A stretch of 64,000 nucleotides of DNA from Gautieria morchelliformis (Eukaryota > Basidiomycota > Agaricomycetes > Gomphales > Gomphaceae). Shown one piece after another: positions 23,495 to 50,575 of this stretch. The notes under the pieces were generated by a model that did not search any database, had not been told where the DNA came from, and saw only the letters and a list, made by a program, of their open reading frames with translations. The stretch covers positions 124,001 through 188,000 of the forward strand of contig WHVA01000134.1 of NCBI GenBank assembly GCA_015179125.1, written 5' to 3'. The position numbers were made by a program, and so were the translations under genes. Numbering within the stretch: the stretch's first letter is position 1; each line of letters opens with the position of its first letter.

Positions 23495-23644
23495 GGAACT
23501 CGAGTTGTTGTTGAGACTAGCCAATAGAGCCGTGCTTCGCACCGGGTTATTTAGGGTTAACATTGCACATGGGTAGTTAATAGAATCAAAGAATTATTTG
23601 GTGAAATGCAACTACATACATTAAATACAAATGGAAATACATAT

Positions 23645-26600
23645 TTAATCAGGCTTCAGCAACACTTCTTTGTATACAATATTAGAAGTTTTGTTCCCCT
23701 CCCCTAAAAGAATATGGACTCTGTTCCAATTAGTGCCTCTTGACACTGCAACATACAACTGTCCATGTGAAAATACCACGTATCGCAAGTCTATGCCTAC
23801 CGTGCCAAGAGACTGCCCTTGAGACTTGTTGATAGTCATGGCAAAGGCCAGCCTGACAGGAAACTGGCGATGCTGGACCTCAAATGGCAATTGGTCTGAG
23901 GTGGGTGTCACTGTCATCCTAGGGATAAATGCAGTCTCTCCTGCAAATGGTCCTGAAATGATCCGCACAAAGAGTACCCTGTTGGTCATATTGATGAGAC
24001 GCAACCTTGTACCATTGCAGAGTCCACGACCAAGGTCAAGATTCCGAAGAAGCATGAGTACCACTCCAGGTTTAAGCCTAAGTTGAGATGGAGGAAGCCC
24101 ACCCATGTTGAGTGAGTTGAGATACTCCACAGGATACACATTGCCATCTTCATTTCCTTTGACTGAGTCTGCACTGGGATAGAGACGCTCCTCCCCAGGG
24201 AATACATTGAGCACCTCAGCATTAACCTCATCCATTTCCATATTGCGAGGGCAAAGGATGGCACGTTCCAAAAAGTATTTGTCTTGGAGTGCCTCCCCAG
24301 TACCAATGTTAGGATAGATAGCTGCAATGAGATCTGACACCTGTGGTCCACAGATCATGTGCTGAGGAAGTGTCAATGAATTGTCCAAAGGGAGATCCTT
24401 TCCCTGACCAACATCAGAGAGCCACTGAGCAAATTGTTCACTCTGGGGATCATGAGGGTGGACTCGCATATTTTGAGTAAGATGGAGGACCTTGACATGA
24501 TGCCACAAAGGAGATCTTTGGATAGAAGCACCCACAATCTCCTCCTTGTTACCTCGAGGAACAACAGGCAGAGTTTGCTGGAAATCTCCACCCCAAGCCA
24601 CAGTAATACCACCAAATGGACGATCTGGACGCTCTAGGACCCTGCAGGTTCTGTTGACAGCTTCAACTACATGACGATGCTGCATAGGCACCTCATCCCA
24701 TATGATCAAATGGACCTGCTTGAGAAGTTCTGCCAATGGTGAGCCTCTTTTGATGTCACATAGAGAACCCTCATGAATCAGAATTGGAATCTTGAGCATA
24801 GCATGTGATGTTCTGCCCCCAATCAGAAGCAATGCTGCAATTCCTGAAGATGCAATGCATAGGACAATAAGACCCCTTCCTCTGATAGAATGAGCCAGGG
24901 TGTTCCAGGTAAAAGCTTTGCCTGTACCACCAGGGCCATTGACAAAGAACAGAAGACCCTCTCCATTTATGGCTGAATGGAGGATCTCATCGTGGACACG
25001 CCTCTGTTCTGCATTAAGCTTGTCAATATTGGTGGCGGCTTTTTCCAGCTCTGTAGCTGGGTCATAGTCCCGCTGCTCAGCTATCCAACGGTTCCCTACC
25101 AATCCCTCCCAGTCCCCCATTATCTGTGGCATATCTGGGAACTCATCCAGAGACTTCCCCCCCTGACGTATGATCTTGTCAATGAGAAAGAGACCAAAGT
25201 CATAGATTTGATCATTGGTAGGATGGTGAATGCCATGCCTATTTTGAAGCTGATACTCCAGGTCATCACAAATACGCTCCTGAAACTCCTCCCAGATTTG
25301 AGCAGGCCGAGCAGGGTTACACCGAAGGAGAATAGTGACAAATAACCTCCTGAGCTGGAAACCTGTTTGTATATGTGCAGCCTCCTGAAGACACTGTGTC
25401 CACTCTGAATCATCTTCTGACAGGCCCCTTGCCAGGCATGCAGCCTTGTAAGTAGGACAAAGGTCACCATCAAATGATCTAAGCTCCTCGAATGACGTTG
25501 CACCTCTGACAACTGTAAGGAGGGTTCGCAAGTAAAAGCGCTCTCCAGAGGCTGGACTTGCAAAATGAAGGCGACCGAGACTGAAACCCAGCTGGCAAGG
25601 TTGCCACCGCTTGGCTTGCTTTTTCCAAACAAAGTGCTCAGGAAATTCCACATAGAGTAGTTCACACGCCTCAGGATATCTGTCATTGGCTTCAAAATAG
25701 GCCATGAGCATGGTCTTAGCATCCGCTGCCCTCTGCCAAGCCATGCCTGGATAGATATGAGGATCAAATATCACATTGTGCTGGCCTGGCAAATGGACTG
25801 GAAGTACCATGACAGGAGGGACCTGAACATGCATTTTATATTCCAGCAGTCTCCAAGCACCTTCATGTGAGCTCACATAGCGTGCATCGAGGTACTGTTT
25901 AACCTCATCCCTCTCCTTATTAATGGTCATTGTGGTCCTGTCAGGCCCCTTGTACATATACTTGTGAATGTACTTGATAGAGCGCACATTGAAAGTGGGT
26001 TCCACATTAATATGGCATTCAAATTCCAAGAGGAGGGTGGGACAATAGGGAACCACGTCGCGGTTGTCCATGATGTTGCCTCTGACATTATGCTGTCTGC
26101 CATCATTAGGACGGCGATACTGTGGATAGCGATCTTCAGTGACAGATGGCACCTCACGAAATTCCTTTGGGAAATGTTTAGAACACTCACCCTCTGTCAT
26201 GCAAGAAGCCCAAGGATGTGCTTGTCCACAGGGGCCATGAGTCATTAGATCACAAACTAATTTGTAGAGCCTTGGATGCTCTTGCTGATCAGGAAAGACA
26301 GCCCAAACCAAAGCATCCACAGCTTCCGGTGTCCTGATCTTATCCGCCTCTTTAAACCCTATGAGAAGGTGCATATGAGGGAGCCCCCGCTTCTGGAATT
26401 CAATCACATGGACACGTGCAACTGTGCGACCAAGGATACCATCCTTCATGATACGTTTGATCAATTGCTCCTTCTTGAGATGAAAAACCCTTGCAACCAA
26501 GTCAGGACGATCACTGGGAGTCTGGCCTGGCTTGAGAGCATCTTTGATTTCTTTCCACTGGGAGTTTGCTGTCATTGTCACAAAGACATCTGCTGGACCA

Positions 26601-28545
26601 TGCTTCCTAGTGATTGCCATTGAATTTTGAAAATTCTCATTCATATCCCTGGCGCTCCCAGTAAATGTAGCAGGCAAGATGACCTTTTGTCCCAAGTTAG
26701 CTGGATTGGCCTGATTGTCCTCAGGTCCAAATGTATCAATCATCTGATTGTAGACCTCAGCTCGCAGCTCATGTTGGTGGTATTTGATCCAATTTAGCTT
26801 CTGCTGTTCAGTCACATCCACAATGTATCCTGAAAGAGCTTGCCAGCCAGGAAGAGAGTTTCAGCTTCACCCTCCCTTGGAAAAAGACGATAACGATAGT
26901 ATTTTGAAATGGTCACACGCCTGTCACTTGAAGGGTCCTCCTCCTCCTCCTCCTCCTGGCCTTGTCGTGGAAGAGCTTGGTCTATCCGTGGAATGTCCCA
27001 ATCCTAGCCTGATTCACCTCTGGGAAAGAGAAGGACATAGTGTAGTGGCGCATACAAACATGTTCGGCCTGAATTCGTCGCAGTTCTCCACCTCTAAGCT
27101 GAATGACAATGTCTCTAGTGCCTCCAGGCACACCTTCTCCAGGGAGCACAATGGCAATCTCATCCGCTGTAGGAATATTATATCTTCTCTGGTCTGTATG
27201 TGCTCTGTAGGTGAGTCTGGCCTCCACAGTCAACCTATCTGGCTGGTTCCTAAGCCTTTCCATCACCTGCTGATAGATTGGAACCAATGGATTGTGAGCC
27301 TGCATCATTTCCTGGAGGTCACTTAAAACATCTGAATCCAAAGGATCAAAACTGTTATTGGCCTCCCTACGTCGCAAAGCCTCTGCTGGATCATAAAAGT
27401 AGAGCTGCGCATAGCTGGGTGCCCTATCCTGACCCTGAGTAGGAAGAAGAGCGCCATGAATATGATAGAGGACTCCCTGAATTTTGAAGACATATGGCCC
27501 AGGTCTATTCACGACCGTGTCATCTATGTTCACTCCCACAGAGACGAATGCCAGTGCAGCATTATAGTTCCGAATCTTTTCCCTAAACTGTTTGCCACGC
27601 CTGGCTTGGATGACCAAAAGAGTCTTTAGTGGTTCTGGAGGTTCCATCAACAATTCAAGGTGTATCTGGCCCTTTGAACAACATATACCAAATTTGGGCT
27701 CAGCAATGGTAGAGTCGGACAGACGCTCTGCCTTCCAATGCCATGCTTTACATTTTGGACATTTGTCATCCATAGCACCAAGGTCATGAGGTGCAATCTG
27801 TTGTTCAATCAAAGGGTGACGTGCTAGCGGAAGGTTTCTTAAAGGCATTGGTGGAGGCGGTGGAAGTGGAGGGGGCTGAGGAGGAGCAGGTGGATGCAGA
27901 GGGTGTGGAGGCACAGGGGGCACAGGGGCAACAGGAGGCACAGGTTGTTGTGGAGCAGGCTGATGAGGCAGTGGAAGTGGAGGGCCCGAGGATGAGCAGG
28001 TGGATGTGGAGGCTGTGGAGCACAGGTCGTTGTAGTGCAGGCTGCTGCTGGAGTGACATTTGATTTGGGAGAGGTTCAGGGTTTGGATTCAATGCCTGTG
28101 CAAGTCGTCGTGGCCGTCCTCGATGTGGCAGAGGCATAGGATTGATATTAGCAGCCTGGGCCCGCAATAGAGCTACAGCTGCAGAGCCTATAGGGACAGG
28201 AGGAGGTGCTGCCTGGGCCTGTCTTTGACCCACAGGTGCAAGAGGCATATCAGCTAACTGTTCCTGTATGGCACGTACAGCATCCCGAGGACTTAGATCA
28301 GGTGGAATGGCATTTGAAGCTCCAGCCACAGAAGGCCAAGGAATTGCATTGTCCTGAGGGAGTAGAGGTCGAGGAAATGGCTGAGGAGGTGGAGGGTCAG
28401 GATTTCAAAGATGTTCTTCAGCTGCAGCGAGAACCCTATCCCGACGACGCATAGAAGGGGACGTCATTGGCAACCGCTGCTGACGCTCCAGAGCACGCTC
28501 CTCCTGCCTATCACGCTCTGGTGTAGAGGGCTCCCTTGAATTACA
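23645..28545 (-). pseudogene. Helitron Rep-Pif1 helicase (H1), frameshifted
   Basis: Rolling-circle replication initiator fused to a Pif1-family helicase. Order from the right: Pro-rich N-terminus (~28545-27850), zinc-finger-like segment (CPKCKAWHW), the Helitron-like N domain (YNIPTADEIAIVLPG), the Rep domain with its His pair (RGLPHMHLLIGF, ~26380) and tyrosine region (IKYIHKYMYKG, ~25960), then helicase motifs GPGGTGKA, LIIWDEVPMQ, GGDFQQTLP and a C-terminal NKSQGQSLGTVG. The last 1058 codons (26821-23645) are uninterrupted. Upstream the frame breaks near 27940 and 27045, a TAG follows, and a one-base loss near 26830 separates LFQD from IVDV. The Walker A motif ends GKA instead of GKS/GKT. 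Not functional as it stands. Confidence 0.85.
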
Positions 28546-28619
28546 GTCAGTTTCAAATCAAGCCAATATATATATATATAATATAAAGGATACTCACATT
28601 TTCACAATGACTGTAGCTC

Positions 28620-28930
28620 ACGGCCAACAATAGGGGATACCAGGGAGGCAGTCAATGTCCACCTAAACCGTCTAAACCTAATGTGTGCCACCAAACCAAT
28701 CCCAGTTCACAGACCACACTGGCTATCAGAGTTATAACTCTGGCCGGAATCAAACTGCAATGCAAGCTCACACTGCGCAATCCAACCAACCAACCAAACA
28801 AATCCACCACAGATACCAGTGAGGTGGTCAATCCGCCTAAATCCAATGTGCACCACCAAACCAATCTTAGTCCACAGACCACACTGGAGTTGCAACTCTG
28901 GCCAGAATCAAACGGCAATGCAGGAGAGTA
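28620..28930. repeat. two ~180-bp direct repeats in H1
   Basis: Units beginning GATACCAG (28636 and 28811) share ACCACCAAACCAATC and CACAGACCACACTGG. Non-coding; they lie between the helicase N-terminus and the 150-bp repeats. Confidence 0.7.
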
Positions 28931-29449
28931 TGCCAGTCCACGATACAACCAACTGACCACACCAACTGCTCTAGGAAGGTCAGATATTAGCACAGCACAG
29001 AGCACACCAAAAACCAAGGAGAGAATCTAAAACATTAGCTTGAAAATCCAACATATGCATTGCAAAACCTTACCAAATAGCTGCAGGGCTTGACTGAAAG
29101 AAATAGCAAATCAGTCAGGGACCAAGCCCAAATAGGCCCCAAAAAGGCAAAGTTCCATGAGAATTAGACCATACCTAAGGAATGACAGACTGAAGAACAG
29201 ATCTGGCATAAAGAAGTCAAATTGTGGCTGAAAAAGCGATATTAAACAACAAAAAATACCAGAAGGAAACAACTATAATTACCAGAGGGATTGCAGATAT
29301 AAATACTTAAAATAGCAAATACAGTAGCATAACACTCACCAGAATGGGGGAGCAATATCCAGGTAGGATGGGCAGTAGTTACAGGACCAAAGTCAACTGC
29401 AAAGAGCCTAAAAAATGCCAAAAAAAGCGAAAATATAAGAAATAAAAAC

Positions 29450-29990
29450 ATAACAAAAATAAAGAAAGGCAGATACAGTAGCATAAAACTGACCTGCAAT
29501 GGAAGACGGGAGGGAGGCAGTGAGAGGAGAAACCTGGGGTGAAAAAAGGTCAAAAAAAGCGAAAATAAAATGAAGAAATAACAATAATAAAAAAAGGCCA
29601 AAAAAGCGAAAATTAATGGAAAAGAAGACACACCAGGGGCAGGGACAGCAGCCAGGAATGGATGGAGGCACGGAGAGGAGAAACCTGGGGTGAAAAAAAG
29701 TCAAAAAAAGTGGAAATAAATGAAGAAATAACAATAATAAAAAAAGGCCAAAAAAGCGAAAATTAATGGAAAAGAAGACACACCAGGGGCAGGGAAGACA
29801 GCCAGGAATGGATGGAGGCAAGGAGAGGAGAAACCTGGGGTGAAAAAAAGTCAAAAAAAGCGAAAATAAATGAAGAAATGACAATAATAAAAAAAGGCCA
29901 AAAAAGCGAAAATTAATGGAAAGGAAGACACACCAGGGACAGGGACAGCAGCCAGGAGTGGATGGAGGCAAGGGGAGGAGAAACCTGGGG
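29450..29990. repeat. ~150-bp tandem repeats in H1
   Basis: At least three copies (GCGAAAATTAATGGAAAAG at ~29606, ~29756 and ~29906), with another part at 30715-30835 beyond the inserted solo LTR. Related, more divergent units occur in H2 (32930-33660). Because the period is a multiple of three, a 187-codon hydrophobic frame (29971-29408, minus) survives through it; I regard that as a by-product. Confidence 0.85.
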
Positions 29991-29997
29991 TGAAAAA

Positions 29998-30707
29998 TGT
30001 TACAATTCCAACATCATACACATTCCCACTCCATATATCCCCATTCCCCCTGCCCAGAACCCATATCATAAACCGTGCCACTAATCATCAGTCCACCCCT
30101 CGAACGCACACATCTCCACTCGCTACACCACAACGCCCCGCCGGTCCACGAGTATACAGACGATGCAGCCATCAGCGGATCCGCCCCCGAACCCCGAGAC
30201 CGAGACGCCCCCACGGATCAGTAGTACGATCGTTCCATCACACGCTCCACTTCGTATAGACGCGTTCCGATTCTGATAGTTTTCGATCGCTCGTTTCCAT
30301 CACCCCTTCCCCACATACCACACATTCCTTATGTCCATTTCATACGACTCCTTTCCTATTCGACAAGTAGAATACACGTGCATAACAGCAGCCGGCACTC
30401 CAACCCCCGTAGCACATGCCTCGTACATCCATCCACCGGCGCCGGTAACATCTCTTTTGACTTAGCGTGTTACACACTGGGGATAAAAGCTGTCATATGT
30501 ATAGTAGAAGATCAGTCAATCAAACTCATTATCCCCAGACATAGTTACTCGGCTTGGATATTATTCTCCTACAACGCATACATCTCACCGCTCACATATC
30601 CCACACGATTCGCTCACATTGGAGCAATCATACACTCGATTCGACTTCACGTTGAAGTCTGAATTATAACGCCTTCCTATCTAAAAACTCGACTCTTATT
30701 CCTCACA
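29998..30707. repeat. probable solo LTR (710 bp) in H1
   Basis: Begins TGTTACAATTCC and ends TTCCTCACA, and interrupts the 150-bp repeat precisely, with AAAAA on both sides. The A-rich site makes the target duplication weak evidence, but the repeat context resumes on the far side. No coding sequence is seen within. Confidence 0.55.
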
Positions 30708-31134
30708 AAAAAAAGTCAAAAAAAGCTAAAATAATGAAGAAATAACAATAATAAAAAAAGGCCAAAAAAGCGAAAATTAATGGAAAGGAAGACACACCAG
30801 GGGCAGGGATGACAGCCAGGAATGGATGGAGGCAAGGAGAGACAGGCAGGAGGCAGAGACAGCCCGTAGCAGACACAGAGAAGGCCAGTAGCAGACAGAG
30901 AGAGAGCAGGCTGCGCAGCTAGGAACGGCGCTCGCGGCTGCGCCGCTCACGTTCAAACTCAGCAAATTACGTAACATTATTATGTAAAACACCCACAACC
31001 ACCCTTCCAGCAACTTTATACTATAGACTAGCCAATAGACCCGTGCTTCGCACCAGGTTAGTTAAGTAAGGTTAACATTGCACAGGGGTAGTCAATAGTA
31101 TTACAGAATTATTTGGTGAAATGAAACTACATAT

Positions 31135-31300
31135 TTAATCAGGCTTTAGCAGCACCTGTTTGTATAAAATATTAGATGTTGTGTTCCCTTCCCTAAAGAA
31201 CATGGACTCTGTTACAATTAGTGCAACATAAAACTGTCCATGTGAAAATACTGCATATCGCAAGTCAATTCCTACTGTGGCCCTGCGCTGCACACCAGGA
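31135..31300 (-). pseudogene. helicase C-terminal fragment in H2
   Basis: Encodes GIDLRYAVFSHGQFYVAL and a C-terminus NILYKQVLLKPD that matches the end of the H1 helicase (NIVYKEVLLKPD). Only the 3' tail remains, consistent with internal deletion of an autonomous ancestor. Confidence 0.8.
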
Positions 31301-31610
31301 TGTGGCACAGCACTGGGTAGGGACTGCCAGGGACCCATTGGATGTGAATGCACTGGGACCACTGCTAGGGTGGATACCTGTGGCTAGGTCAAACACATTG
31401 GGTAAATAAAACTTGGAATAAGTACAATTATTTGGATAAGTAAAACATATCTTATCACAATTGAAAGTAGCTCTAAGTAATGCATCAGGGTAGGTAATGT
31501 CTCCACCCATGTCTCCCATGTCTGTGTGCCCCTCATGGGTAGCATGTCCCTATGTATGGCATGTGTTCCCAGAGTGTAGTGTGTCCTGCAAGTATAGTGT
31601 GCGTAGCATG

Positions 31611-32280
31611 TGTTATGACTGTGCATTTCCGACTTCCAACACTCAGTTCCACTCAAATTCCAACCCTCTGATAATTCCAACATGACACCCATTGTTTTAT
31701 TCCTTTGTTCTTTCGACTCTATTACTCGAACCCACCGGACTCGCCTCGCAGCACAGCAAGACCATCTGTCCGGCCCCTTTGGAGTCTCATTGTTTCTTTA
31801 TCTCAGATATACTTTCCGACCCCTTGTTCTTTTGCCATTGTTCTACCCTACCCTGCACTCCCCTTGAAGTCCCCTTGTTCCCAATTAGTTAATTATCCTG
31901 TATGTCTATCTGACTTCCGCTCCCTCCAGAATTTGCTTAGTACCACACCATTACATGTTGTCTCAGCTCTTTGTATAAAAGCCCCTCATGTATGCTCATT
32001 ATTCTGCAATCAGATAATTGCCTTCGATACATGATTTCCTTCGCTGTATCTCCTGTTCTTAGCACAGTGAGTTTTGCAAGACCTCTGTCTCTCCGCCTCC
32101 CACCTTCCACCTTCTGACTCAGTTTCCAACTCAAGTTCTGACTTCTGTTTAGTTTGATACATTCCGACTTCCGACTCACGATCCGAAATACTTAGGAGGA
32201 TAGTTCATTGGGGGTGCAACATATAAGTTGAAGCTGTTGTCCTTTCTAGTTCCGACTTGCGGAAATATTGATACATACCA
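31611..32280. repeat. solo LTR (family sL1) in H2
   Basis: 670 bp, starts TGTTATGACTG, ends GATACATACCA, flanked by GCATG (31606-31610 and 32281-32285). Homologous to the solo LTRs in H3 and H6. It contains a TTTGTATAAAAG box (~31972). Confidence 0.85.
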
Positions 32281-32560
32281 GCATGTCACCATGCATAGCA
32301 TGTCCCCCAAGTGTAGCATGTTCCCCATGTGTAGTGTGTTCCCCATGTGTAAAGTGTTCCCCATGTGTAGTGTGTCTCCCAAGTATATCATATGTATTAT
32401 GTCCCTTGTGTGTAGCATGTCCCCATGTGTAGCATATCCCCCATGCACAGCATGTCCCCCAAGTATATCATGTGTAGCATGTCCCTTGAGTGTAGCATGT
32501 CACCCAAGTATAGTGTGCATAGCATGTCCCTTGTTTGTAGTATGTCCCCATATGTAATAT
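32281..32560. repeat. minisatellite in H2
   Basis: Irregular tandem units of ~17-20 bp of the type AGCATGTCCCCCATGTGT. Same family as the arrays in H3, H4, H6 and H7. Confidence 0.8.
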
Positions 32561-34206
32561 AACTCTAAGAGCCTAAAAGCGAACTTATTGTAGGTGCAGA
32601 GAAAATAAATAAATGTCAGAGGGTTTACAATGGATAATAGAGCAATAGACTTATCTTTTTCAAGCAGAGGCTGTTGTCATTAATTTTTAGCAAAGTCAAA
32701 GAAATTTTTTGATATCTATTTTGACAAATATACAGTATATATATACATAAAATAAAATAAAATAAAAAATAACATAACAATTAAAAAAAAAGAGAATATG
32801 ATCCTAATAAATATAAAAAAAGAAGCAGATATGAGAGCAAGAAACATACCACTTGCAGCCATGACACACAGGAATGGTGGGAGCTCTGAACCTGCGCTAG
32901 AAAAAAAAAAAAAAAAAAAAAGAGGATAAAAAGTGCAAAATTATTGCAAGACAGAAGAAAACACAGACCTGAGGCAGTGATAATGATCAAGAAAGGTGGG
33001 ATCCAATAAGAGGAGCAGCTTATGGTGGAAAGAAATCAAAAAGTGGTTAAAAAAGTGAAAATGTTGGTAGAAATACCATGGATAGAAGCTGATCCTAATA
33101 AATGTCAAAACAACACAAATATTATAGCAGGACACACACCAGATGCAGCAATAGCAGACAGGACAGGGGAAGCACTGAGAGGAGGAACCTGGGCTGAAAA
33201 TATGGCAAAAAGAGGATAAAAAAGCGAAAATTAGTGGAAGAAATGACAGATATGATAAGGAAAGAACACACACAGGAGGCAGTAGTGATGACCAAGAAAG
33301 GTGGAGGCAATCAGAGGAGCAACCTAAGCTGAAAAGAAGTCAAAACGTGATTAAAAAAGCGAAAATTATAGCAAGAAATAGCAATATTTACCATGGAGAG
33401 AAGCTGATTATAATAAATATCAAACCAGGATAGCAAGACACATACCAGATGCAGCAATATCAGACAGGCAAGGTGGGAGGCAGTGAGAGAGGGGGCTGAA
33501 AAGAAGACAAAAAGGGGATAAAAAGCGAAATTTATTGGAAGAAATGATAGTTATGATAGGAAAAAACACACCAGAGCCAGTAATTACCATCCAGAAAGGT
33601 GGGAGGCAATGAGAGGAGCAGCCTAGGGTGAAAAGAAGTGAAAAGAGTATAAAAAAGCGAAAGTATTAACAATAGTTACCTGAGGGGGCTGTAGAGAGAT
33701 AGACAGCCCTAATAACAGACACAGAGAGAGCTAGTAGCAGACAGAGAGAGCCTGCAGCAGACAAAGATCCAGCAGCAGACACAGAGATCCAGCAGCAGAC
33801 ACAGAGATCCAGCAGCAGACAGACAGATCCAGCAGGCACAGAGACAGTGGGCAGGAGAGCCAGAGGTTGCCAGCAGTTGAGCCAGAGGAAATGCCAGCAG
33901 GAGGATTGAGGCAAGGTGGGTGCGCGCGCAGTAGCGTTGGACGCGAACAGGTCACGTGACCAGGAATGCTGCTTGGTCACTCGCGGCTGCGCCGCTCGCG
34001 TTCAAACTCCGCAAATTACGTAACATTATTACATAAAACACCCACAACCACCCTTCCAGCAACTTTATACTATAGACTAGGTGGATACCCGCGCTTCACG
34101 CGGGGGTGCAAGTCAAACGCATCCGTAAGGTCAAATGCATCAGCAAGGTCAAACACATTGGGTGAATCAAACTTGGGATAAGTCAAACACATTCCAAGGT
34201 AGGTAA

Positions 34207-34894
34207 TGTTATGACCATACTGGTTGACCAACTCCAGTACCTCCACACCTCCTCCAACTCTATTCCGCAACATCCTCACTTTGACCTTTTGATCCCCTTG
34301 TTCTTTCCTATTCACATGCTTCCCCCTATGCCTCTATTCACCGGCCTTCCGTACTCAACTGTCAGCACAGCAAGTCTGGATCATCAGAAGTTCCATTTGT
34401 TTTGCTATCAATTAGACCTACACACCCCTTGTTCTTTTGCCCATTGTTCTTAGTTCTACCCTGCACCCCCTGGTAGTTCCTCTTGTTCCACATTAGTTAC
34501 TTACTCCATGTATCCTAGTGACTTTCGCTTGCACTGGAATTGCTTACCTCTCTACCTTCTGACATATTGTCTCAGCTCTTTGTATAAAACCCAGTCACGT
34601 ATGCCTCTGTTCTACAATCAGATAATCAACTTTAATATGTGACTCCCTTTGCACTGTTTCCTATTCTTAGCACAGCAAGTACTTGCAAGGGCGCCGCCTC
34701 TCTGACCTCCATCTTCCAACTTGATTTCTGATATCCAACTTCACTTAATTCTTGAACCCTTACCTCTTCAGTTATAATACTTGACCTCTTCCAACTTCCG
34801 ATCTCCAATCTCCAAAATACTTAGGATGATAGTTGGGGGCGCAACATATAAGTTGAAGCCGCAGTCCTTTTAGAGCCAAACCCGATACATAACA
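34207..34894. repeat. solo LTR (sL1) in H3
   Basis: 688 bp, TGTTATGACC to GATACATAACA, flanked by GGTAA (34202-34206 and 34895-34899). H6 has the same insertion at the same site, and H2 carries the matching empty site (31493-31497). Confidence 0.92.
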
Positions 34895-34929
34895 GGTAAT
34901 GACTCTACACATTTCTCCCATGTCTGTGT

Positions 34930-35660: not shown

Positions 35661-35689
35661 AAGGGCCTCAAAGTGAAGAAAGCAGAGGC

Positions 35690-37720: not shown

Positions 37721-37879
37721 TCAGGGACATGTATCAGTATCTATTTTGTGACATATATAAAATAGGAAAAGAAACCACATTTAAGCAGCTGTTCTTATTA
37801 ATTTTAGCAAAGTCAGGATAATTTATTGATATCTACCTTTTGAAAAAATGTCAAAAAATGTACAGTACATTTAACCTGA

Positions 37880-39432: not shown

Positions 39433-42400
39433 CTAGGTGGGTACCCGCGCTTCGCGCGGGGGTGTAGGTCAAGCGCCTCGGTAAGGTCAAATGCATCAGT
39501 AAGTCTAACATATCAGTAAGGTCAAGTACATTGGGGAAAACCAAAGTAATCAATTTGCATCAAGTAAAATGAAGTCAAACACATAAACCATATCAAGAGA
39601 AGTGGATATTAAAAAATCAAGGAGCTCTAAGTAATACATCTTTATATACTATGTTGGTTGTGTCCAAACCCTCCTCAAGCAAGACCTTCACTCTGTTCCA
39701 ATTGGTCCCTCTTGATACACCAACATACAACTGACCATGTCCAAACACTGGATATCTCAGGTCCAGCCCAACCGTACCCGAAGACTGTCCCTGAGACTTG
39801 TTGATGGTCATTGCAAATGCCAAACGCACTGGAAACTGCCTCCTTTGCAGCACAAATGGCAACTCTCCCTCTGATGGCTTAATGATGATCCTGGGGATGA
39901 AAGCAATATTTCCTGCACATGGACCTGAGATGATCCTGACCTCCAACACTCTAATGCTTATCCTCACCAACCGCAACCTTGTCCCATTGCATAGTCCTTG
40001 CTTCTGATCCAAATTGCGCAACAGCATCAGAGGCACTCCAGGCTTGACTTCCAAGCGAGCAGGAGGAAGACAGCCCATCTCTATGGAATTCAGATACTCC
40101 ACAGGATACCGATCTGCATCATCGGATTCTTCAATGGAATTTGTGCAGTGCAAGACCTGAGCATCACCTGGAAACTCCCTAAACACCATGGAATTGATCT
40201 CATTGACATCAGTGTTTCTGGCACAGAGGATGGCACGCTCCAAAAAGTAATTGTCCTGGGCAGGGACATGATTGCCAATGCCAGGGTATATTTCCTGGAT
40301 CAGATCTTCAATTCCAGGGCCACAAACCATGTGAGGAGGGAGTGAGAACATATGATCTAGTGGGAGATCCTTTCCCTGGCCCACATTCTGCAGCCATTCT
40401 GCAAACCTGGCTCTGTCAGGGTCATTTCTCACCCGCATGTTCTCTGTCAGATGGAGGACATTGATCTTTGGCCACAGATATGCCTTCTGAAGGGTAGCTC
40501 CCACAATATCCTCCTTGGAGCCTTTAGGGACAATTGGGAGAGTCTGCTGAAAGTCACCTCCAAAGGTGACTGTGATGCCACCAAAGGGTCTGTCAGGCTG
40601 GTCAAGGAAATCCCTCAGTGTCCTGTCAATGGCCTCTGTGGCATGGCGATACTGCATTGCAGCCTCATCCCAGATGAGGAGACTGGCCTGTCTCAGCATG
40701 CCAGCCTTGTCAGAGTTCTTTTTGATGGAGGAGAAAGAGCGCTCATGGACAGGAATGGGAATTCCAAGCATGCTATGAGAGGTTGTACCCTTAGTGAGGA
40801 TAAGTGCAGCCATTGCAGATGAGGCTACTGCAATCACAATGAGGCTCTCCGCTCTACAGGAGTGGATTAGAGCGTTCCATGTGAATGATTTCCCGGCGCC
40901 ACCTGAGCCAGTGACAAAAAACATTTGTCCATCAGGTTTCCCATGAGCATCTCTGGTCAGTGCCGACCGTAATAGCTGATCATGCGTGGACCTTTGCCCC
41001 TCATTCAGCCTGGGAACCTCCTCATCAGCTATGTTCCTCTCTTCAACACGGTCATAGTCCCTCTGCTCAGCTATGAACCTGTTTCCAATGAGGGCCTCCC
41101 ACTCGCCTGCCACCCGAGGCATATCATCAAAGCTGCTCAAGGACATTCCACCCTGCTGGAGGATTTTTTCCAAGAGAAAGAGGCCAAAATCATAAACCTG
41201 ATCGTCCTGTGGATCCTGCATACCATGTCTGATTTGGAGCTGATGTCTGAGATCATCACATATGTGCTCCCTGAAGCCATCCCATAGTCTTCCGGGGCCT
41301 GATGGATTGCAATGGCCAAGGATGGTGGCAAAGAGATGTCTGAGCTGAGCACCTGTTTTCATGCCACTGGCATCCTGGAGACACAACCTCAACTCCTGAT
41401 CATCATCCAAAAGTCCCCTTGCACGACAGGCCTCCTTGTAAGTAGCATATTGTATGCCATCCACCGACCTAAGCTCCTCAAAGGATCTAGCCCCCTTGAC
41501 CACTGTGAGGAGAGTGCGCACAAAAAATCTCTCTCCTGATCTAGGGTTTGCAAAGTGAAGGCGACAGATGCTATAACCTCCTTGGCGTGGTGTCCATACC
41601 TTTTCCTGTGAGTGCCAGGTAAAATGCTCAGGAAAATCCACATAGAGCAGATCACGTGCTTCAGGGTAGATATCATTGGCCTCAAAGTAAGCCATGAGCG
41701 GTGTCTTTTTCGCCTCAGCCCTTTCCAGGATGTTGTCCACATCCTGGTTGGGATCAAAGATGATTGTGTGATGGTCCTTTTCATGGACTGGCAGTGCAAT
41801 GACTGCAGGCACCTGGGTGTGGATTTCCCGCTCCAGCAACCTCAGGATGTGTCTCTGGATCAGGGAACTCTGCTGAAATCATTGAATCCACCTCATGTGG
41901 ATGTCTGATCTTGGAATCTCTTTCAAACCAGATAAGAATATGCATGTGTGGGAGTCCCCTTTTCTGGAATTCAATGGTGTGCACCTGAGCGATGGTTTCC
42001 CCAAAAATATTTTCCTTGACGATCAAGTCAATGAGGTATTTCTTTTTGAGCTGGAACACCCGCGACACCAGGTCAGGCCTGTCCTGAGGAGTTTGTCCAG
42101 GCAACAATGCATCCAATACCTCCTGCCAGTTGGGATTGGCAGTCATGGTAATGCAGACATCTGCCACACCATACTTCCTTGAAATGGCCAGAGAGTTCTG
42201 CAGGTTTTCCTGCATGTCCCGTGTCCCCCCCTGAAATGTGGCAGGCAGAATGGATCTTATGCCCAAGTTGTTTGGATCTCTGTCATTGTCATTGCGATGA
42301 AAGGCATCCATCATCTGGGTATACATCTCAGCACGGAGAGTGTGTTGATTTGTCCTGATCCACCACAGCCTGCTTTGCTCTGCAACGGCCCAAGAGTCTA

Positions 42401-44951
42401 CAATGTACTGCTGGAATAATTTGCCAGCGCGCAGGAGTGTTGTAGGTTCTTCTGTTCTCTGGAAGAGACGATAGGAATGGAACTGAATTTGGGTGACATG
42501 CCCACTTCGCTCACGCACGTCTGGTAATTGGCGATAGCGAATACCCGGTTGCCACCCCAACTCTCCCCTGGGAAAGAGCAAGACATAGTGAAGAGAGGCA
42601 TAGTTTGGATTCATATCGGATACCCTTCGAAAGCGTCCACCTTTGAGCTGCACAATAACATCCCTAGGTTCAGGGTTGATGCCATCTCCAGGAAGAACCA
42701 CCGCAATCTCATCCGCGGTAGGGATATTATACCTCCTAGGATCCCTGTGTTCCCTGTATGTGAGCCTAGCCCGGATCTCACCATTCTGTCCCTGAGCTCT
42801 GAGCCTCTCAGCCACTTGTCTATATATGGGAACATGAGGATTGCATAAGAGGAGCATTTCCTGCAAGTCTCCCATGATAGTTGGAGACAGACCTGGGTTA
42901 CGCGTGTTCCTCTGTGCCAAAGCCAATGCTGGATCATATATATAAAGTTGGGCATACTGTATCCGCCTCCCAGGGTTAGGGATGAGAGAGCCATGAATAT
43001 GATACAGTTCGCCCTGCAGCTTGAGGACATATGGACCACGACCCTCCCGAAGCAAATCTAGATCAAAGTCGGCTCCCAAGGAAGTGAATGCAAATGCAGC
43101 ATTGTACTGCCTGATGTTCTTGCGAAACTGTTTGGCCTCAGGGTCCTGGCCCTCTAAGAGCCGTCTCAATGGCTGAGGGAGCACTGGCAGCTCTGGAAGC
43201 TGCACCTTTCCTTCTAAACAGCAATCACCAAATCTGGGCCGCCGATTGGAGGATCTCAGCAGGTGTTCTGCCATCCAGTGTAATGCTCCACAGTCAGGGC
43301 AGGCAACAACCATGGGACCCAGATCATGACGCAGCACATCTGCCTCGATTATTCTAGAGTGACCGAGTGGAATAAAAGGAGGAAGTCGCTGAGGACGCTG
43401 CCGAGGTACAGGGTGTGGCAGAAGAGGCTGTGGAGGTCCAGGGAGTGGCAGAGGAGGCTGAGGAGGTGCAGGGTGTGTCAGAAGAGGCTGTGGAGGTGAA
43501 GGGAGTGGCAGAGGAGGCTGAGGAGGTGCAGGGAGTGGCCGAGGAGGCTGAGGAGGTGCAGGGAGTCGCTGAAGAGGCCGCAGAAGCGCAGGGAGTAGCG
43601 GAGGCATTGGTCTTATTGCATTGGCCTGAGCACGCAATGCTGCCACTCCTGCAGAACCTACTACAGGAGGATTAGCTGCCTGTCTACCTCTTCCCAATTG
43701 CTGCAATATAGCAGACTGCTCAGCAGCCTGAGCACGCAACTGTGCAATTCCTGCAGAACCTACCAGAGGAAGATTGGGAGGTGGCTGTATAGGCGCCTGC
43801 CTGTATCTTCTCACGGGCTGTGCTGCTGGGATTGCTACTAACTGAGCACGAAGGGCTGCCACCTGCTGTCCAGGACTGGGATCGGGAGGACGTAATGGCC
43901 CTGCAGCAGGTTGTTGAAAAGGATCAGCCGCATTGCTTCTAGGAGGAGGGTGAGGGATGGCAAAAGGAGCTGGTGGAGGGGGTGGCTGGTTCCAAGCTCT
44001 GGCAGCAGCCACAGCAAGGGCACGCGCTCTCCGATCAGTAGGCGACGTCATATGACCCTCCTGCTCCTCCCTCGCCCTTTCACGCTCCTGCTGACAATTT
44101 CTCTCTGGAGTAGATGGATCCCTGAGAAATGTAGGCATAAGCTTAGAGGAACAATCAAGCTACCCCACTTCAACTTACATTTGCAAGCAGATGCTGTTGT
44201 TGTTAATTTTTCTTGGGCAAAGTCAGGGGAATTTATTAATTTCTAATTAAATAAATGTCAGACGGCTCACACCAGACCACAGAGAAATATATGTACCAAG
44301 GAAGGGATGGGGAATTTTTTTGATGAAAATATCCAAGTCTTCTTCGGCTATCCAACTGGAATAATTCTTCCAGTAAAAGGTCCTGGTCCTGGTCCTGGTC
44401 CTGGGGAGATGTCTTCTTCAGCCACCAGTAGTGCAAGTCAACACTGAAAGAACTGCAATGCAATTGTGGCTCCCTCTAAGGCAGCCTGGGATGACTACCT
44501 GGCTCCTTAGCAGAGAAAAAGCTGCCCCAATGAAGGGGTCAACCCCAATAGTTCACTGCAGAGACCTCCCTGGGAAGAGATCTTTTGTGTACTACACTAT
44601 GTAGGCTATCTATTAATTCAGTCTCACGCAATTTTTATTCTATCTAGTAGTGGGCAGAGAGGAGAGGAGAGGAGGGTGGTGGTGGAGTGCGCAAAGCGGC
44701 TGGCTGCGCAGCGATCTGCCAGCGCAGCGCTGCTTTGAGCGCCTGAGCCGGCAGACCGGCGTAAACCGCTCGCGGCTGCGCTGCTCGCACGCTCCAGAAC
44801 GCTGCGCAGCGCTGGAGCCGGCAGAGTGGCGCAAACCGCCGGTAGGGCCCAGGGGCTCGCGGCTGCGCCGCTCACGTGCTCCGCTGACAAACTGATGACC
44901 AAGCATTGGTCAGCAGCGCCCACAACCCACTGAGCGCGTTTAACTCTTAGA
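39433..44951 (-). mobile_element. Helitron H5 (family C, Rep-helicase bearing, 5.5 kb)
   Basis: 3' end CCCGCGCGAAGCGCGGG ... CACCTAG (plus 39433-39460) and 5' end TCTAAGAGTTAAACGCGC (plus 44951 leftwards), both as in H4. It carries a nearly complete Rep-helicase gene on the minus strand (39617-44138) with one internal deletion. It is likely the autonomous type for family C. The 44140-44940 stretch holds the 5' leader, a TCCTGG hexamer run (44378-44405) and GC palindromes. Confidence 0.92.
39617..44138 (-). pseudogene. Helitron Rep-Pif1 helicase (H5), internal deletion
   Basis: Two long frames. 44138-41781 (785 codons) holds a Pro/Gln-rich N-terminus, a zinc-finger-like segment (CPDCGALHWM), the N domain (YNIPTADEIAVVLPG) and the Rep His pair (RGLPHMHILIWF). 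41839-39617 (740 codons) holds the helicase: GSGGAGKSFTWN (intact Walker A), LLIWDEAAMQ, GGDFQQTLP and NKSQGQSSGTVG. Against H1, about 180 residues are missing between FPDPETHPE and LLEREIHTQVPAV (junction at plus ~41846-41852). This removes the Rep tyrosine region and shifts the frame. A TCTCAG acceptor just upstream of RDPSTPERN suggests a non-coding first exon. The helicase half is otherwise clean. Confidence 0.88.
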
Positions 44952-45150
44952 CTAGGTGGATACCCGCGCTTCGCGCGGGGGTGCAAGTCAAACGCCTCGG
45001 TAAGGTCAAACGCATCAGCAAGGTCAAACACCTTGGGTAAATCAAACTTGGGATAAGTCAAACACATTTGGATAAGAAAATTTCATTCAGATAAGTAAAA
45101 CACATTTTATTGATTGAAAGTAGCTCTAAGTAACACATCAAGGTAGGTAA

Positions 45151-46534
45151 TGTTATGACCATGCTGCTTGACCAACTCTGGTACCTCCATGCCTCCTCTG
45201 GCTCTATTCCACAATGTCCACACTTTGACCTTTTGATCCCCTTGTTCTTTACTATTCACATACTTCCCCTTTTGACTCTATTCACCGGCCTTCCCTACTT
45301 GACCCTTAGCATAGCAAGTCCGGAGCATCAGGAGATCCATTTGTTCCACTATCAATGTTACGACTGTTCCCCTCAACCATCTCCACCATATCCGCATATC
45401 CTCCGCACCACCTCTGCACCGCCTCCGCACCACCTCCGACTCTATTCCACAACATCCGCACCATCTGCAACCCTCTACCTCGACCCTTGTGATTTCAGTA
45501 CCCCTGGCCACCTCCCGATACCGGCCCCCGTACTCAACCCTGAACACAGCAAGATACCATTTCCGTAATTCCGTTTCTTCCGAGGCCTATTGTACATACT
45601 TGCCTTGTTCTTTCCCATTGTACTTACCCTACCCTGCACCCCCGTTGTCATCCCATTGTTCCACATTAGTTACTTGCCCCGTATGTCTATCCGATTCCTG
45701 CACTCTCCAGAATTTGCTTAGTACCATACCATTACCTGTTGCTTCAGCTCTTTGTATAAAACCCCCTCATGTATGTCTCCGTTCCTGCAATCAGATAATC
45801 AACTTCGATATGTGATTCCCTTGGCACTGTCTCCTGTTCTTAGCACAGCGAGTTTTGCTAGTCTTGTCTCCTTCCGCTCTCGACCCTCTGTCCTCTGCCT
45901 CTTCCAACCTTTGTTCTCCGGCCCTCGAACCTCGACTCTCAGTACTCTGTTCCCGACTTCTGCCTAGTTCATCAGGGGCGCAACACATAAGTTGAAGCCG
46001 TTGTCCTTTCCAGTTCCGACCTCTGGGAATTCCAATACGTAACAATCAATTAGACCCACATTCCCCTTGTTCTTTTGCCTATTGATTGTTCTTAGTTCTA
46101 CCCGGCACCCCCTTGTAGTTCCTCTTGTTCCGTATTAGTTACTTACTCCATTTATCCTAGTTACTTTTGCTTGCACTGGAATTGCTTACCTCTACCTTCT
46201 GACATGTTGTCTCAGCTCTTTGTATAAAACCCAGTCATGTGTGCCTCTGTTCTGCAATCACATAATTGACTTTGATATGTGACTCCCTTTGCACTGTTTC
46301 CTGTTCTTACCACAGCAAGTACTTGCAAGGCCTCTGTCTCTCTGACCTCTGCCTTCCAACTTGATTTCTGATATCCAACTTAACTCAATTCTTGAACCCT
46401 TACTACTTCAGTTACAATACTCAACCTCTTCCAACTTCCAATCTCAGATCTCAAAAATACTTAGGATGATAGTTGGGGGTGCAACATATAAGTTGAAGCT
46501 GCAGTCCCTTTAGATCCAAACCTGATACATAACA
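45151..46534. repeat. solo LTR (sL1) in H6, interrupted
   Basis: Starts TGTTATGACC, ends GATACATAACA, flanked by GGTAA (45146-45150 and 46535-46539), as in H3. Without the inner element it is 690 bp. Confidence 0.92.
45356..46044. repeat. second solo LTR nested in the first
   Basis: 689 bp, TGTTACGACTG to AATACGTAACA, with ATCAA on both sides (45351-45355 and 46045-46049). The uninterrupted site is present in H3 (CTATCAATTAGACC, ~34407). Same LTR family as its host. Confidence 0.92.
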
Positions 46535-46559
46535 GGTAATGACTCTCCACATTTCTCCC

Positions 46560-47260
46560 ATGTCTCATATCCCCTACCTCACATGTAGTGTGTCCTTGCC
46601 TGTAGTGTGTCATCACACTTTATCTGTCCTCACACGTATTGCATCCTCACATGGAGCATGTCCTCACATGTGGCATGTCCCCACACGTAGTGTGTCCCCA
46701 AGCATAGTGTGCGTAGTGTGTCTCCACATGTAGCATGTCTCCATATGTAGTATGTCCCCACATGCAGTACAGTGTGCATGGCATGTCCCACATGCATAAC
46801 ATGTCCCTCAAGTATTTTGTGTGTAGCATGTCCCTGGTTTGTAGCATGTGCCCAAACATAGTGTGTCCCTAAATTATAGCATGTGTGTCCCCCATGCATA
46901 GTGTGTCCACATGTGTAGCATGTCCCTACATGTAGTGTGTGTAGCATCTCCCTCAAGTATAGTGTGCAAAGTGTGTCCCCAATGCATAACATGTCCCCCA
47001 AGTATAGTGTGCATAGCATGTCCTTTGTTTGTAGCGTGTCCCCCAAGTATAGCATGTGTAGAATGTCCCTTGTTTGTAGTGTTTTCCCCTGTAGTGTGTC
47101 CCATGTTTGTACTGTGTCCCCCAAGCATAGTGTGTCCCCACATATAGTGTGCACATCCCCATGCATAGCATGCATGTTAGTGTGTGTAGCATGCCCCTCA
47201 AGTATAGCATGCATAGCATGTCCCAATGGCATGTGTAGCATATCCCCAAGGGCTTCAAAG
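46560..47260. repeat. minisatellite in H6
   Basis: Units of ~17-20 bp (GTGTCCCCAAGTATAGC type), the counterpart of 34930-35660 in H3 with unit gains and losses. Confidence 0.9.
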
Positions 47261-48139
47261 TGAAGCGAGCAGGGGCTGTTACTTATCATTAACTTTTCGC
47301 AAACTCAGGGACATGTATCAATATCTATTTTTCAAAAAATGTCAAAATAAATGTCCAGTACATTTAAGCTGAAGTTGTTATTAATTTTAGCAGAGTCAAG
47401 ATTATCTATTTTTGAAAAATGTCAAAAAAATGCACTGTACATTTAAGCTAACAATTTTCACAAAGTCAGGATAATTTATTGACATCTATCTGCGAATAAA
47501 TGTCAAAAAAGTACAGTACATTGAAGCAGAGGCTGTTATTAATGCCCAGCCAAAGCCAGAGAAGCCCTGAGACTGACAGAGAAACCCAGAGCCCAGCCAA
47601 AGCCATAGTAAGCCAGCCACCAGTATAGCCAGAGAGGAGTGGCTGGTAAGTGGCTTTACAGTAAATAAAACAATAAAACAAACCACATTTAAAAGCAGAA
47701 TCTATTGTCATTGATTTTAGAGGAAACTTATTGATGTCAATTTTCGAAAAAAAACCTGAAAAATATTGATATTAAAATACATTTTTTTCTGCAGTCTTTG
47801 GATGTTATTTAAATCTATTTTTGAAAAAGATCACAAAAATATAATGCAAATGTGACAATACTATATGATGAGAAAAAAAGGAACTAATAAAATTACCAAC
47901 ACCAATAAAATAAAATACATGGCAATGCATTAAAAAAAGATATTACCTAGCAATAGAAAGCCAGCCAAGCCAATAGATAGCCAGCCAGCCAAAGCAATAG
48001 ACAGCCAGCCAGCTACAGGAGGAGACAGCACACAGAGCAGACAGCACACAGAGCAGCCAGCACACAGAGGGGACAGCAGACAGAGCACACAGCAGAAAGA
48101 GGAATCGCCGGTTGGGCAGGTTCCTAGTGTTCCCTCCTT

Positions 48140-48404
48140 ACCGTGCGGCCTTTATACCGCGCGCGCGTCGTGCACGGACCATGCTCGTACGCTGTCGCGA
48201 ACGTGTCACGTGACCGCTGCTCAGCGTTCGAGCTCGCGGCTGCGCCGCTCGCGCGCTCCAGGTTCACGCCGGTCTGCCGGTCACGTGACCGCTGCGCAGC
48301 GTTGGTGCTCGCGGCTGCGCCGCTCGCCGCTGACATAAGTTTTACGTAATATTATTTGTAAGCGCGCCCACAACCTCCCACCGTGCTACTTTCACCTATA
48401 GGAA
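48140..48404 (-). promoter_or_regulatory. conserved 5' module of H6
   Basis: Minus-strand GGTATAAAGGC (plus ~48149-48160), GTGCACGACGCG, two GTCACGTGAC palindromes (48207-48216, 48280-48289), two GCGAGC-type palindromes, then the Helitron 5' end. A donor-like GGTAATATC lies at plus ~47938-47947. Confidence 0.5.
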
Positions 48405-48557
48405 CTAGGTGGGTACCCGCGCTTCGCCCAGGGGTGTAGGTCAAGCGCCTTGGTAAGGTCAAATGCATAAGTAAGGTCAAGTGAATCAGTAAGGTCAAGT
48501 GAATCAGTAAGTTCAAGTGCATTGGGGTAAATAGGATCATGCAAAATATATCCCTGA

Positions 48558-48758
48558 TCATATAGTATCATGAATCATGTATGCACCCATGGAACAGCCG
48601 AACATGCAGAGCTCTCTCTCGACCTCTGGGATGGGCCTCCCAGCGACTCTAGACATGAAAGTGGTAATAGTCTTGACTGAATCATCAGAGATTATAAGAT
48701 TGCACCTATTGTCATAATCCACAGGTTTCAAAGCTTGTGCATTGTGAAATAGATCCAA
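48558..48758 (-). CDS. captured 66-codon fragment in H7
   Basis: Same open frame as 36961-37161 with one residue changed (NRRNL to NRCNL). Function unknown; likely a captured host exon piece. It has no visible promoter of its own. Confidence 0.5.
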   Translation of the reverse strand: MDLFHNAQALKPVDYDNRCNLIISDDSVKTITTFMSRVAGRPIPEVERELCMFGCSMGAYMIHDTI

Positions 48759-48896
48759 TAGTGATCTTGGGGATCCTGAATTTTGACAATGTGGTTATAT
48801 CGATATGCCAGCTGATCCTCGGGTGACACTCTCACAGGACCAGAAACAATACCAAAATCAGAAATGGGGGAAGACCGAAAGTGCAGTTGGATAGCA

Positions 48897-49690
48897 TGTC
48901 CTCACACGTAACGTGTCCTCACAGGTACCATGTCCCCACATGTAACGTGTCCTCACAGGTAGCGTGTCCCCACACGTAACATGTCCTCACAGGTAGCGTG
49001 TCCCCACATGTAACGTGTCCTCACAGGTAGCGTGTCCCCACACGTAACGTGTCCTCACAGGTAGCGTGTCCTCACAGGCAGCGTGTCCCCACACGTAACG
49101 TGTCCTCACAGGTAGCGTGTCCCCACACATAACGTGTCCTCACAGGTAGCATGTCCCCACACATAACGTGTCCCCACTCCCCACACATAACATGTCCTCA
49201 CAGGTAGTGTGTCCCCGCACATAACGTGTCCTCACAGGTAGCATGTCCCCATACATAACGTGTCCTCACAGGTAGCGTGTCCCCGCACGTAACGTGTCCT
49301 CACAGGTAGTGTGTCCCCGCACGTAACGTGTCCTCACAGGTAGTGTGTCCCCACACGTAACGTGTCCTCACAGGTAGTGTGTCCTCGCACATAACGTGTC
49401 CCCACTCCCCACACGTAACATGTCCTCACAGGTAGTGTGTCCCCGCACATAACGTGTCCTCACAGGTAGCATGTCCCCACACATAACGTGTCCTCACAGG
49501 TAGCGTGTCCCCGCACGTAACGTGTCCTCACAGGTAGTGTGTCCCCGCACGTAACGTGTCCCCACAGGTAGCGTGTCCCCACATGTAACGTGTCCTCACA
49601 GGTAGCGTGTCCTCACAGGTAGCGTGTCCTCGCACGTAACGTGTCCCCACAGGTAGCGTGTCCTCACACGTAACATGTCCTCACACATAT
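48897..49690. repeat. long 17-bp minisatellite in H7
   Basis: Over 40 units alternating GTGTCCTCACAGGTAGC and GTGTCCCCACACGTAAC, with a higher-order ~34-bp pattern. The longest tandem array in the window. Confidence 0.95.
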
Positions 49691-50575
49691 CAGGGACATG
49701 TATCAGTATCTATTTATATAGACATAAATAAAATAGCAAAAGAAACCACATTTAAGCAGCTGTTGTCATTAATTTTAGCAAAGCCTGGATAATTTATTGA
49801 TATCTACCTTTTGAAAAAATGTCAAAAAATGTACAGTACATTTACCCTGAAGCTGGTATTAATTTTAGCAAAGTCAGGATAATTCATTGATATCTATATT
49901 TATTTTTCAAAAAAAGATAATAAAAAACACACTACATTAAAACAGAAGTTGTTATCAACTTGAGCAAAGTCAGTATAAGTTATTGATATCCATTTGCGAA
50001 AAAATGTCAAAAAAATTTACAGGATAGTTAAGGTGGCTGAGGTTAGCCAGTTAGATTTATTGATGTCTATTTGCGAAAAAATATCAAAAAAAATGTACAG
50101 GATATTTAAGTTGGCAGTGATTAAGGTTAGCAAGTTAGATTTATTGATGTCTATTTGCGAAAAAAATATCAAAAAAATATACAGGACATTGAAGCAGAAG
50201 CTGGTGTCAATTCACAGCCAGAGAAGCCCAGAGACACCCAGAGACACACACAAAGACACCCAGAGCCCAGCCAAAGCAATAGTAAGCCCACCAGTACAGC
50301 CAGAACACAGGAAGACACCAGTGGGGAGTGCGGTGATGCAGCATCGCTCTCTTTATACCGAGCGAAGGGTCGTGCACGGACCACCCTCGCGTATGGTCAC
50401 GATGACTGCGAACCGGTCACGTGACCTGGGACGCTGCTGCGCAGCGTCAATGGTCTGGCCTGGGCCAGGGGCCTAGGGCTCGCGGCTGCGCCACTCGCTC
50501 CGCTGACCTAATTTTTACGTAACATTATTTGTCAGCAGTGCGCCCACAACCCACCGTGCTCGTTTAACTCTTAGA

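Follow-up and report, generated by a model that had tools for sequence, protein, structure and literature searches.

How do seven Helitrons come to lie head to tail over 27 kb of fungal DNA with not a single base between neighbors? The case is found in a 64,000-nt stretch of Gautieria morchelliformis contig WHVA01000134.1 (hereafter the window; coordinates are window positions throughout), where the minus strand of 23517..50575 is made up entirely of abutting Helitron units, all of whose boundaries were read. An initial annotation of the window had called this arrangement unusual. For its own genome the description fails, and the notable point lies in the genome-wide scale: in this Helitron family, 72% of intact 3' ends abut the 5' terminus of another Helitron. 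The seven-unit array itself is genuine, and its members are ordinary Helitrons of canonical type. We consider it probable that they were inserted successively at one place, each at the 5' terminus of the resident element and all in one orientation.

Seven units in one insertion site

Following the minus strand from 5' to 3', the array reads U7, U6, U5, U4, U3, U2, U1:

48405..50575 (-), U7, non-autonomous Helitron of 2171 bp, 5' TCTAAGAG, 3' CCACCTAG, 3' hairpin degenerate; the 5'-most unit, with the host A adjoining its 5' side
44952..48404 (-), U6, non-autonomous Helitron of 3453 bp, 5' TTCCTATAGG, 3' CCACCTAG
39433..44951 (-), U5, Helitron of 5519 bp with REP and Pif1-helicase frames, 5' TCTAAGAG, 3' CCACCTAG
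36826..39432 (-), U4, non-autonomous Helitron of 2607 bp
34077..36825 (-), U3, non-autonomous Helitron of 2749 bp, 5' TTACACTATATG, 3' CCACCTAG
31028..34076 (-), U2, non-autonomous Helitron of 3049 bp, 5' TCTATAGTATAAAG, 3' CTATTGGCTAG, which belongs to a second 3'-end family
23517..31027 (-), U1, Helitron of 7511 bp with a REP/HEL frame, 5' TCTATAGTATAAAG, 3' CTATTGGCTAG; the 3'-most unit, with the host T adjoining its 3' side

Read directly, the six internal junctions (plus-strand positions 31027/31028, 34076/34077, 36825/36826, 39432/39433, 44951/44952 and 48404/48405) and both outer boundaries agree base for base with the initial annotation, and the outer flanks A (plus 23516) and T (plus 50576) are present as it had them. 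All seven units end in CTAG, as had been claimed for every copy, and at the junctions the following base is the initial T of the next unit. Five units start with TC (U1, U2, U4, U5 and U7) and two with TT (U3 and U6), a start that is common genome-wide at the same boundary. The claim of at least two families is borne out by the two types of 3' end, CCACCTAG in U3-U7 and CTATTGGCTAG in U1-U2; three types of 5' end occur among U3-U7 and a fourth in U1-U2. A GC-rich hairpin had been placed before each CTAG. This part of the description stands for U3-U6, four of the seven units, in which the hairpin is clear (shuffle z -2.9 to -4.0), and falls for U1, U2 and U7, in which it does not rise above shuffled sequence (z 0.0, -0.6 and +0.6, respectively).

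What did the site look like before the array arrived? The flanks are as follows:

23317..23516 (+), left flank: the end of a Copia long terminal repeat (LTR), to ~23496, then ~20 bp of host repeat whose last base is A
50576..50775 (+), right host flank: the host repeat of the left flank continues here, first base T

The two flanks were joined into a 400-base query with the join at 200/201, and 24 of the 40 scored candidates proved contiguous over the join. Twenty-three of these contiguous matches span query positions 176-400 and one starts at 180, the Copia LTR end making up query positions 1-180. Twelve loci were fetched and 11 were readable; there the empty site is GAGATTGG in nine and GAGCTTGG in two. 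The filled site reads GAGA[array]TGG, with one host T fewer than the empty site and no target duplication. A single A^T site, short of one T, holds the entire 27 kb array. The Copia retrotransposon to its left (~19.0-23.5 kb, plus strand; integrase and RVT_2) has its 3' LTR end ~20 bp short of the array, and the stretch 18994-19173 is 97% identical to that LTR end.

Helitron 5' termini as probable insertion sites across the genome

How common are such junctions elsewhere? In the 122 Mb assembly, which comprises 1113 contigs, there are 974 exact matches to the 3' end CGCGGGTANCCACCTAG, with T as the next base in 964 cases and another base in 10. In 703 of the 974 the 5' core GGTTGTGGG follows 14-44 bases on, meaning that another Helitron starts at the very next base; this count misses degenerate 5' ends. 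Chance is excluded as the cause, because a control pattern for the junction motif has no match anywhere in the genome. Random A^T insertion into the ~8.4 million AT sites (a figure estimated from the density in the window) would be expected to yield ~0.1-0.2 adjacent cases among 974 insertions, on the assumption that every junction is independent; any copying of blocks would weaken that premise. Many 5' and 3' types are combined across these junctions.

The bases that precede Helitron 5' ends give a matching picture. Two patterns that permit A, C or G before the start gave 854 matches, and a count by eye of the 200 of them that were listed found G before 135, A before 65 and C before none; before TCTAAGAG-type 5' ends, T precedes 7 copies and A, C or G precedes 410. 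The unit boundaries of the initial annotation thus recur in other copies, with 5' ends that follow A or G and never C among the 200 listed and with T after nearly all 3' ends. CTAG stands directly before 75/75 of the G-preceded 5' ends in fetched sequence, including 40/40 windows picked only for their G, and no G^T insertion away from CTAG was seen among them. The fetched part of the window itself (L001) was left out of this count of G-preceded ends, as it was from the orientation sample and age tests described below. In two fetched samples, the 3' end abuts a 5' end in 28/35 (one junction being counted twice via L001) and in 24/40.

Is the preference one for A^T as such or for a Helitron terminus? 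Among 150 fetched 5' ends, 89 abut a CTAG, five have a CTAG within 10 nt, two have a reversed 5' terminus upstream (L112 and L175) and 54 have neither. The sample includes 55 windows picked for a preceding A and 40 picked for a preceding G, these 95 showing ~29 upstream bases; its proportions differ from those of the genome, and the relevant point is the scarcity of reversed neighbors. A plain local A^T hot spot was rejected on these grounds, since A^T is palindromic and predicts head-to-head neighbors as often as head-to-tail ones. As reversed neighbors are scarce in spite of this symmetry, the site must be recognized as a Helitron 5' terminus, strand included. A general A^T hot spot inside Helitrons was also rejected: a conserved A^T that lies ~50 nt into the 5' region gave no match at all.

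Which of two abutting elements is the newcomer? A perfect junction is silent on the matter, and imprecise ones bear on it. At 14 sites a 3' end runs into a 5' terminus whose first bases are missing, as compared with one site for the control pattern. Most of these near misses start at an A^T inside a known left terminal sequence (LTS), for example TTCCTA^TAGG or TTACACTA^TATG, and the six that were read (on contigs C102, C188, C371, C263, C1070 and C656) are as expected. The corresponding search at A^T within the 3' terminus gave 0 matches. The left-over tip of the resident can be seen before the newcomer on C102 (TTACTA after the host A), on C188 (TTCCTA) and on C196 (TTA after CTAG); in such cases, therefore, the newcomer lies 5' of the resident.

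Some further termini deserve mention. On C188 (L122; C188:50525-50774), four copies of TTCCTA precede a TTCCTATAGG 5' end, and two and one copies are present at L117 and L115, respectively. The run could stand for four successive insertions; with only one matching partner found on the contig, slippage is just as likely an origin of the remaining copies. On C133 (L087 and L109; C133:15099-16075), two 5' ends that belong to different Helitron types and lie ~730 bases apart share the 17 bases that precede them. At L033:2153 and L040:7239, a 3'-end-like sequence ending in CCACCTAG and followed by AGGTAAGGG is not near any 5' start; it may be a terminator within the units that is a fossil or has been bypassed.

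Proposed growth of the arrays and rival explanations

By what route could arrays without spacers be built? The junctions are precise, neighbors are unlike, insertions are concentrated on LTS tips and near misses fall in the same tips, while insertions into host DNA occur at A^T; all of this is observed directly. In the scheme that we propose, the 3' CTAG of the newcomer would be joined to the 5' T of the resident and the host A to the newcomer's own 5' T. The host A and the first T of the resident would re-form the A^T target after each event, so that the host A would shift outward with every insertion, and no spacer base is left between units because these two bases make up the target. Growth would proceed on the 5' side, with U7 the newest, 5'-most unit and U1 the oldest, 3'-most one. 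As for the enzymology, we infer that the transposase nicks the resident LTS as if starting transposition and that the incoming 3' end attacks the nicked LTS in trans, which would amount to the circle-closing reaction carried out between two elements. Nicking and trans joining would explain the exactness of the junctions, their orientation, the mixture of subfamilies whose termini resemble one another, the absence of an A between units and the near misses in the LTS tip.

The ages of the units bear on the side of growth. The divergence of the first 190 bases from those of the nearest relative served as a proxy for age. By this measure, 5' ends preceded by A are nearer to their relatives than internal ones (medians of 0.021, n=55, and 0.040, n=65; p=0.033). 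Ends on the same strand with <12 kb between them were assembled into 23 groups. Of the pairs within these groups, 44 have the older unit on the 3' side and 21 have it on the 5' side, two being ties, and a within-group permutation for 5'-ward youth, run on rounded age values, gave a one-sided p=0.0076. The 5' ends on contigs <20 kb were left out of these comparisons (14/135 in the test by type; 15/135 in the pair test, the additional end being one without a recorded place), as were windows under a 170-base minimum from the fetched 5'-end set and from the comparison of 3' ends. An order in which the newest unit is 5'-most within arrays is moderately supported.

Several points weigh against this order and the scheme behind it. 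The 'arrays' of the age test are groups defined by spacing and strand and were not read through. The signal is uneven between types: TCTAAGAG alone supports 5'-ward growth (p=0.001), the TTAC type is flat (p=0.37) and the TTCC type is reversed, non-significantly (p=0.18). A permutation of means gave p=0.13, and a sign test by whole groups 15 versus 8 (p=0.21). In the comparison of 3'-end ages, from which L006 and exact repeats of one sequence were left out, the medians coincide and the expected class has the higher mean (p=0.32). U7, the predicted youngest unit, bears the degenerate 3' hairpin. Regarding the near misses, the left-over tip is seen for only three of the 14; those at C612:40883 and on C704 start with TC and may be intact variants; and those on C656, C723 and C1103 read alike (TATGAAAGTAGC) and might all have been copied from a single short-ended element.

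Could the arrays have formed otherwise? Precise CTAG/T junctions are typical of circles and concatemers, and a rolling-circle event that passes the 3' end might insert several head-to-tail copies of one element, an idea stated in PMC5876387 and by Pritham and Feschotte as reported in PMC2267711 (here and below, papers are cited from their accessible parts). Adjacent units would then be copies of a single element, and for the arrays read this was rejected. Among 24 complete units cut from the window and seven other stretches, the mean shared base fraction is 0.37 for adjacent units (n=16) versus 0.41 for non-adjacent units (n=260; Mann-Whitney p=0.61). The nearest relative of U4, full-length and 97% alike, is on contig C25, flanked by other neighbors, and two 1550-base units (c1/e1; contigs C47 and C102) differ at 2 bases while their neighbors differ, one of the pair abutting a 5' terminus exactly and the other lying six bases inside one. 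So small a difference between units on separate contigs suggests recent Helitron activity. U2 and U1, for their part, are 96% alike over the first 97 bp yet 75% alike at their 3' ends. Concatemers are accordingly a very unlikely source of these arrays. A second rival, in which newcomers insert one after another 3' of the resident, at the G^T where its CTAG meets the host T, and the newest unit is 3'-most, is harder to tell apart, as it yields identical junctions. It is one of two readings that Du et al. (2008, PMC2267711) gave for an adjacent head-to-tail Helitron pair at maize r1, whose order they left unresolved, insertion into A^T at the 5' end being the other. Their PCR (polymerase chain reaction) data favor it at face value: the upstream element occurs alone in some maize lines and the downstream element alone in none, for which the authors propose G^T insertion or later loss, and these data count against growth at the 5' end. 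The Helraiser transposase, moreover, cuts both transposon ends in vitro, making the 3' end a plausible target (PMC5876387). Against this route, no G^T insertion was met away from CTAG, all 40 windows picked for G following CTAG; the near misses are all 14 in the LTS tip and none inside the 3' terminus, and the age order within arrays is, moderately, the opposite one. We regard insertion on the 3' side as unlikely.

Two further accounts concern the movement of whole runs and the assembly. Runs might transpose or duplicate together when an inner 3' end is passed, or arrays might swap units by recombination, and Helitron read-through past the 3' end is known (PMC5148889). Contigs C101 and C122 have a common junction that is identical over 221/221 nt and a spacing that matches over ~9 kb, but their 3' neighbors differ, which goes against successive insertion alone and suggests that some runs were copied or recombined, or that the small contigs are poor. 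As a case for block mobility it is weak: both are contigs of 10-11 kb, and the C122 stretch, near an end, looks error-prone. Young units, on the other hand, differ in their neighbors from locus to locus (c1/e1; U4/a3), and the junctions mix many 5' and 3' types, so that block mobility is a rather unlikely explanation for the arrays. C101/C122 and C111/C164 are small contigs that repeat array parts of other contigs, possibly as haplotigs or assembly leftovers; C111 and C164 have their 5' flank in common and show no difference within the part read. Finally, collapsed or misjoined repeats could produce abutting units as an assembly artifact, and the assembly is indeed fragmented, with array pieces on several contigs of 10-16 kb. 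Assembly could have made the unit number of a given array wrong. Misjoins, though, would hardly hit the exact terminal base 703 times with mixed partners, or give matching near-miss pairs, and an artifact of this kind is extremely improbable.

We return, then, to successive insertion at the 5' terminus. In its full form, this reading would make the LTS, in this lineage, a site- and orientation-specific landing pad for Helitrons, used by way of nicking and trans joining; the arrays would be ordered records of insertion, newest unit 5'-most, and most new copies would be diverted from host DNA. Taken together, the evidence tips the balance slightly in favor of this full form.

Coding capacity, known systems and significance

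Which Helitrons are these? Three frames in the two coding units bear on their identity:

41784..44159 (-), REP frame of U5: Helitron_like_N PF14214 (E 3.6e-55), PHMH (HUH-type) motif
39620..41878 (-), helicase frame of U5: PIF1 PF05970 (E 5.7e-63), Pif1_2B, Walker A
23648..26860 (-), frame of U1: Helitron_like_N PF14214 (E 3.5e-49, profile positions 36-191 of 191) and PIF1 PF05970 (E 4.4e-72)

The CTAG ends, A^T insertion and the presence of REP (PF14214) and Pif1 helicase (PF05970) in both U1 and U5 uphold the identification of the units as Helitrons. In the window as it stands, REP and helicase of U5 are two separate, overlapping open stretches, in which PHMH and Walker A were found and a tyrosine motif was not matched by a simple pattern. 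The U1 frame carries the motifs PHMHLLIG (HUH-type), KYIHKYMYK (two-tyrosine) and Walker A; the start of the U1 REP domain lies outside the helicase-bearing frame. The top match of the U1 protein among 7971 candidates scored is 54% identical over the full query. Its named Agaricomycete relatives among the best 120 of 2629 are from Coprinopsis, Phanerochaete, Antrodiella and Psilocybe (47-50% identity), and plant relatives in the same set are from Rhododendron and Aquilegia (45-48% identity). Helentrons, or Helitron2 (HLE2), feature an endonuclease domain and a T-containing target other than A^T. Membership in that group was rejected, as the endonuclease domain is absent from the four Helitron frames scanned and the target here is A^T; for FoHeli, by comparison, the target is T/A (PMC5148889).

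Minisatellites are present in three units: a 17-base unit repeated ~46 times in U7 (48897-49685), a 17-base unit repeated ~25 times in U4 (37295-37716) and a 150-base unit repeated 3.3 times in U1 (29509-29997). Elsewhere in the window, a second Copia element on the minus strand (55480-59479) has a 1171-codon open stretch (RVT_2, integrase and gag-pre-integrase) together with an open stretch at 58949-59479. The segment 14700-16200 recurs elsewhere in the genome, in nine more copies of nearly full length (88-91% identity) and in shorter ones at up to 96%.

How much of this was known before? Head-to-tail Helitron pairs and arrays were; the scale, the specificity for site and strand and the evidence on order are new. 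The maize r1 pair resembles the present array in having CTAG followed by the TC of the next element, unlike neighbors and no A between them (PMC2267711). It is, however, a single pair, whereas the present genome offers 703 junctions, along with near misses in which the newcomer lies on the 5' side of the resident and a test by age. In Myotis bats, tandem Helitrons (Pritham and Feschotte 2007, as described in citing papers) likewise have perfect head-to-tail junctions, but they were read as rolling-circle tandem repeats, and the neighbors in our arrays are no more alike than other units. FoHeli inserts into itself, and a three-copy tandem is described in Metarhizium acridum (PMC5148889); these are isolated cases with non-canonical ends and a T/A target, unlike the CTAG ends, the A^T target and the large share of abutting 3' ends in this genome. 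Maize Helitrons insert preferentially in the vicinity of their own kind (Yang and Bennetzen 2009, cited in PMC12477314 and PMC3288121), and clustering is common to both systems, but in maize it is near or inside other elements, while here it is base-precise, at the 5' terminus and in one orientation. In the Helraiser circle, the ends are joined precisely, with the 5' TC directly after the 3' end, as in our junctions (PMC5876387). The circle joins the ends of one element, and here the joining would take place between two. In IS608 (IS200/IS605), the tetranucleotide of the left flank is the site of both cleavage and insertion, so that elements can stack; IS608 is bacterial and has another class of transposase, and the likeness is one of mode only. 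A literature search, with the subscription literature mostly outside it, turned up no published genome where the majority of Helitrons adjoin another one at the 5' end.

Why does the side of growth matter? Three readings of the spacer-less Helitron junction have stood side by side since 2007-2008, namely a concatemer, insertion into G^T and insertion into A^T at the 5' end. Hundreds of junctions between unlike partners, with near misses that fix the order at their own sites, make the growth side directly testable. If the reading proposed here is true, self-targeting by Helitrons could spare host genes some damage, give rise to composite elements and account for 'multiple 5' termini'. The order of units in an array would then serve as a relative clock, and a natural site-specific target for Helitron insertion would be indicated.

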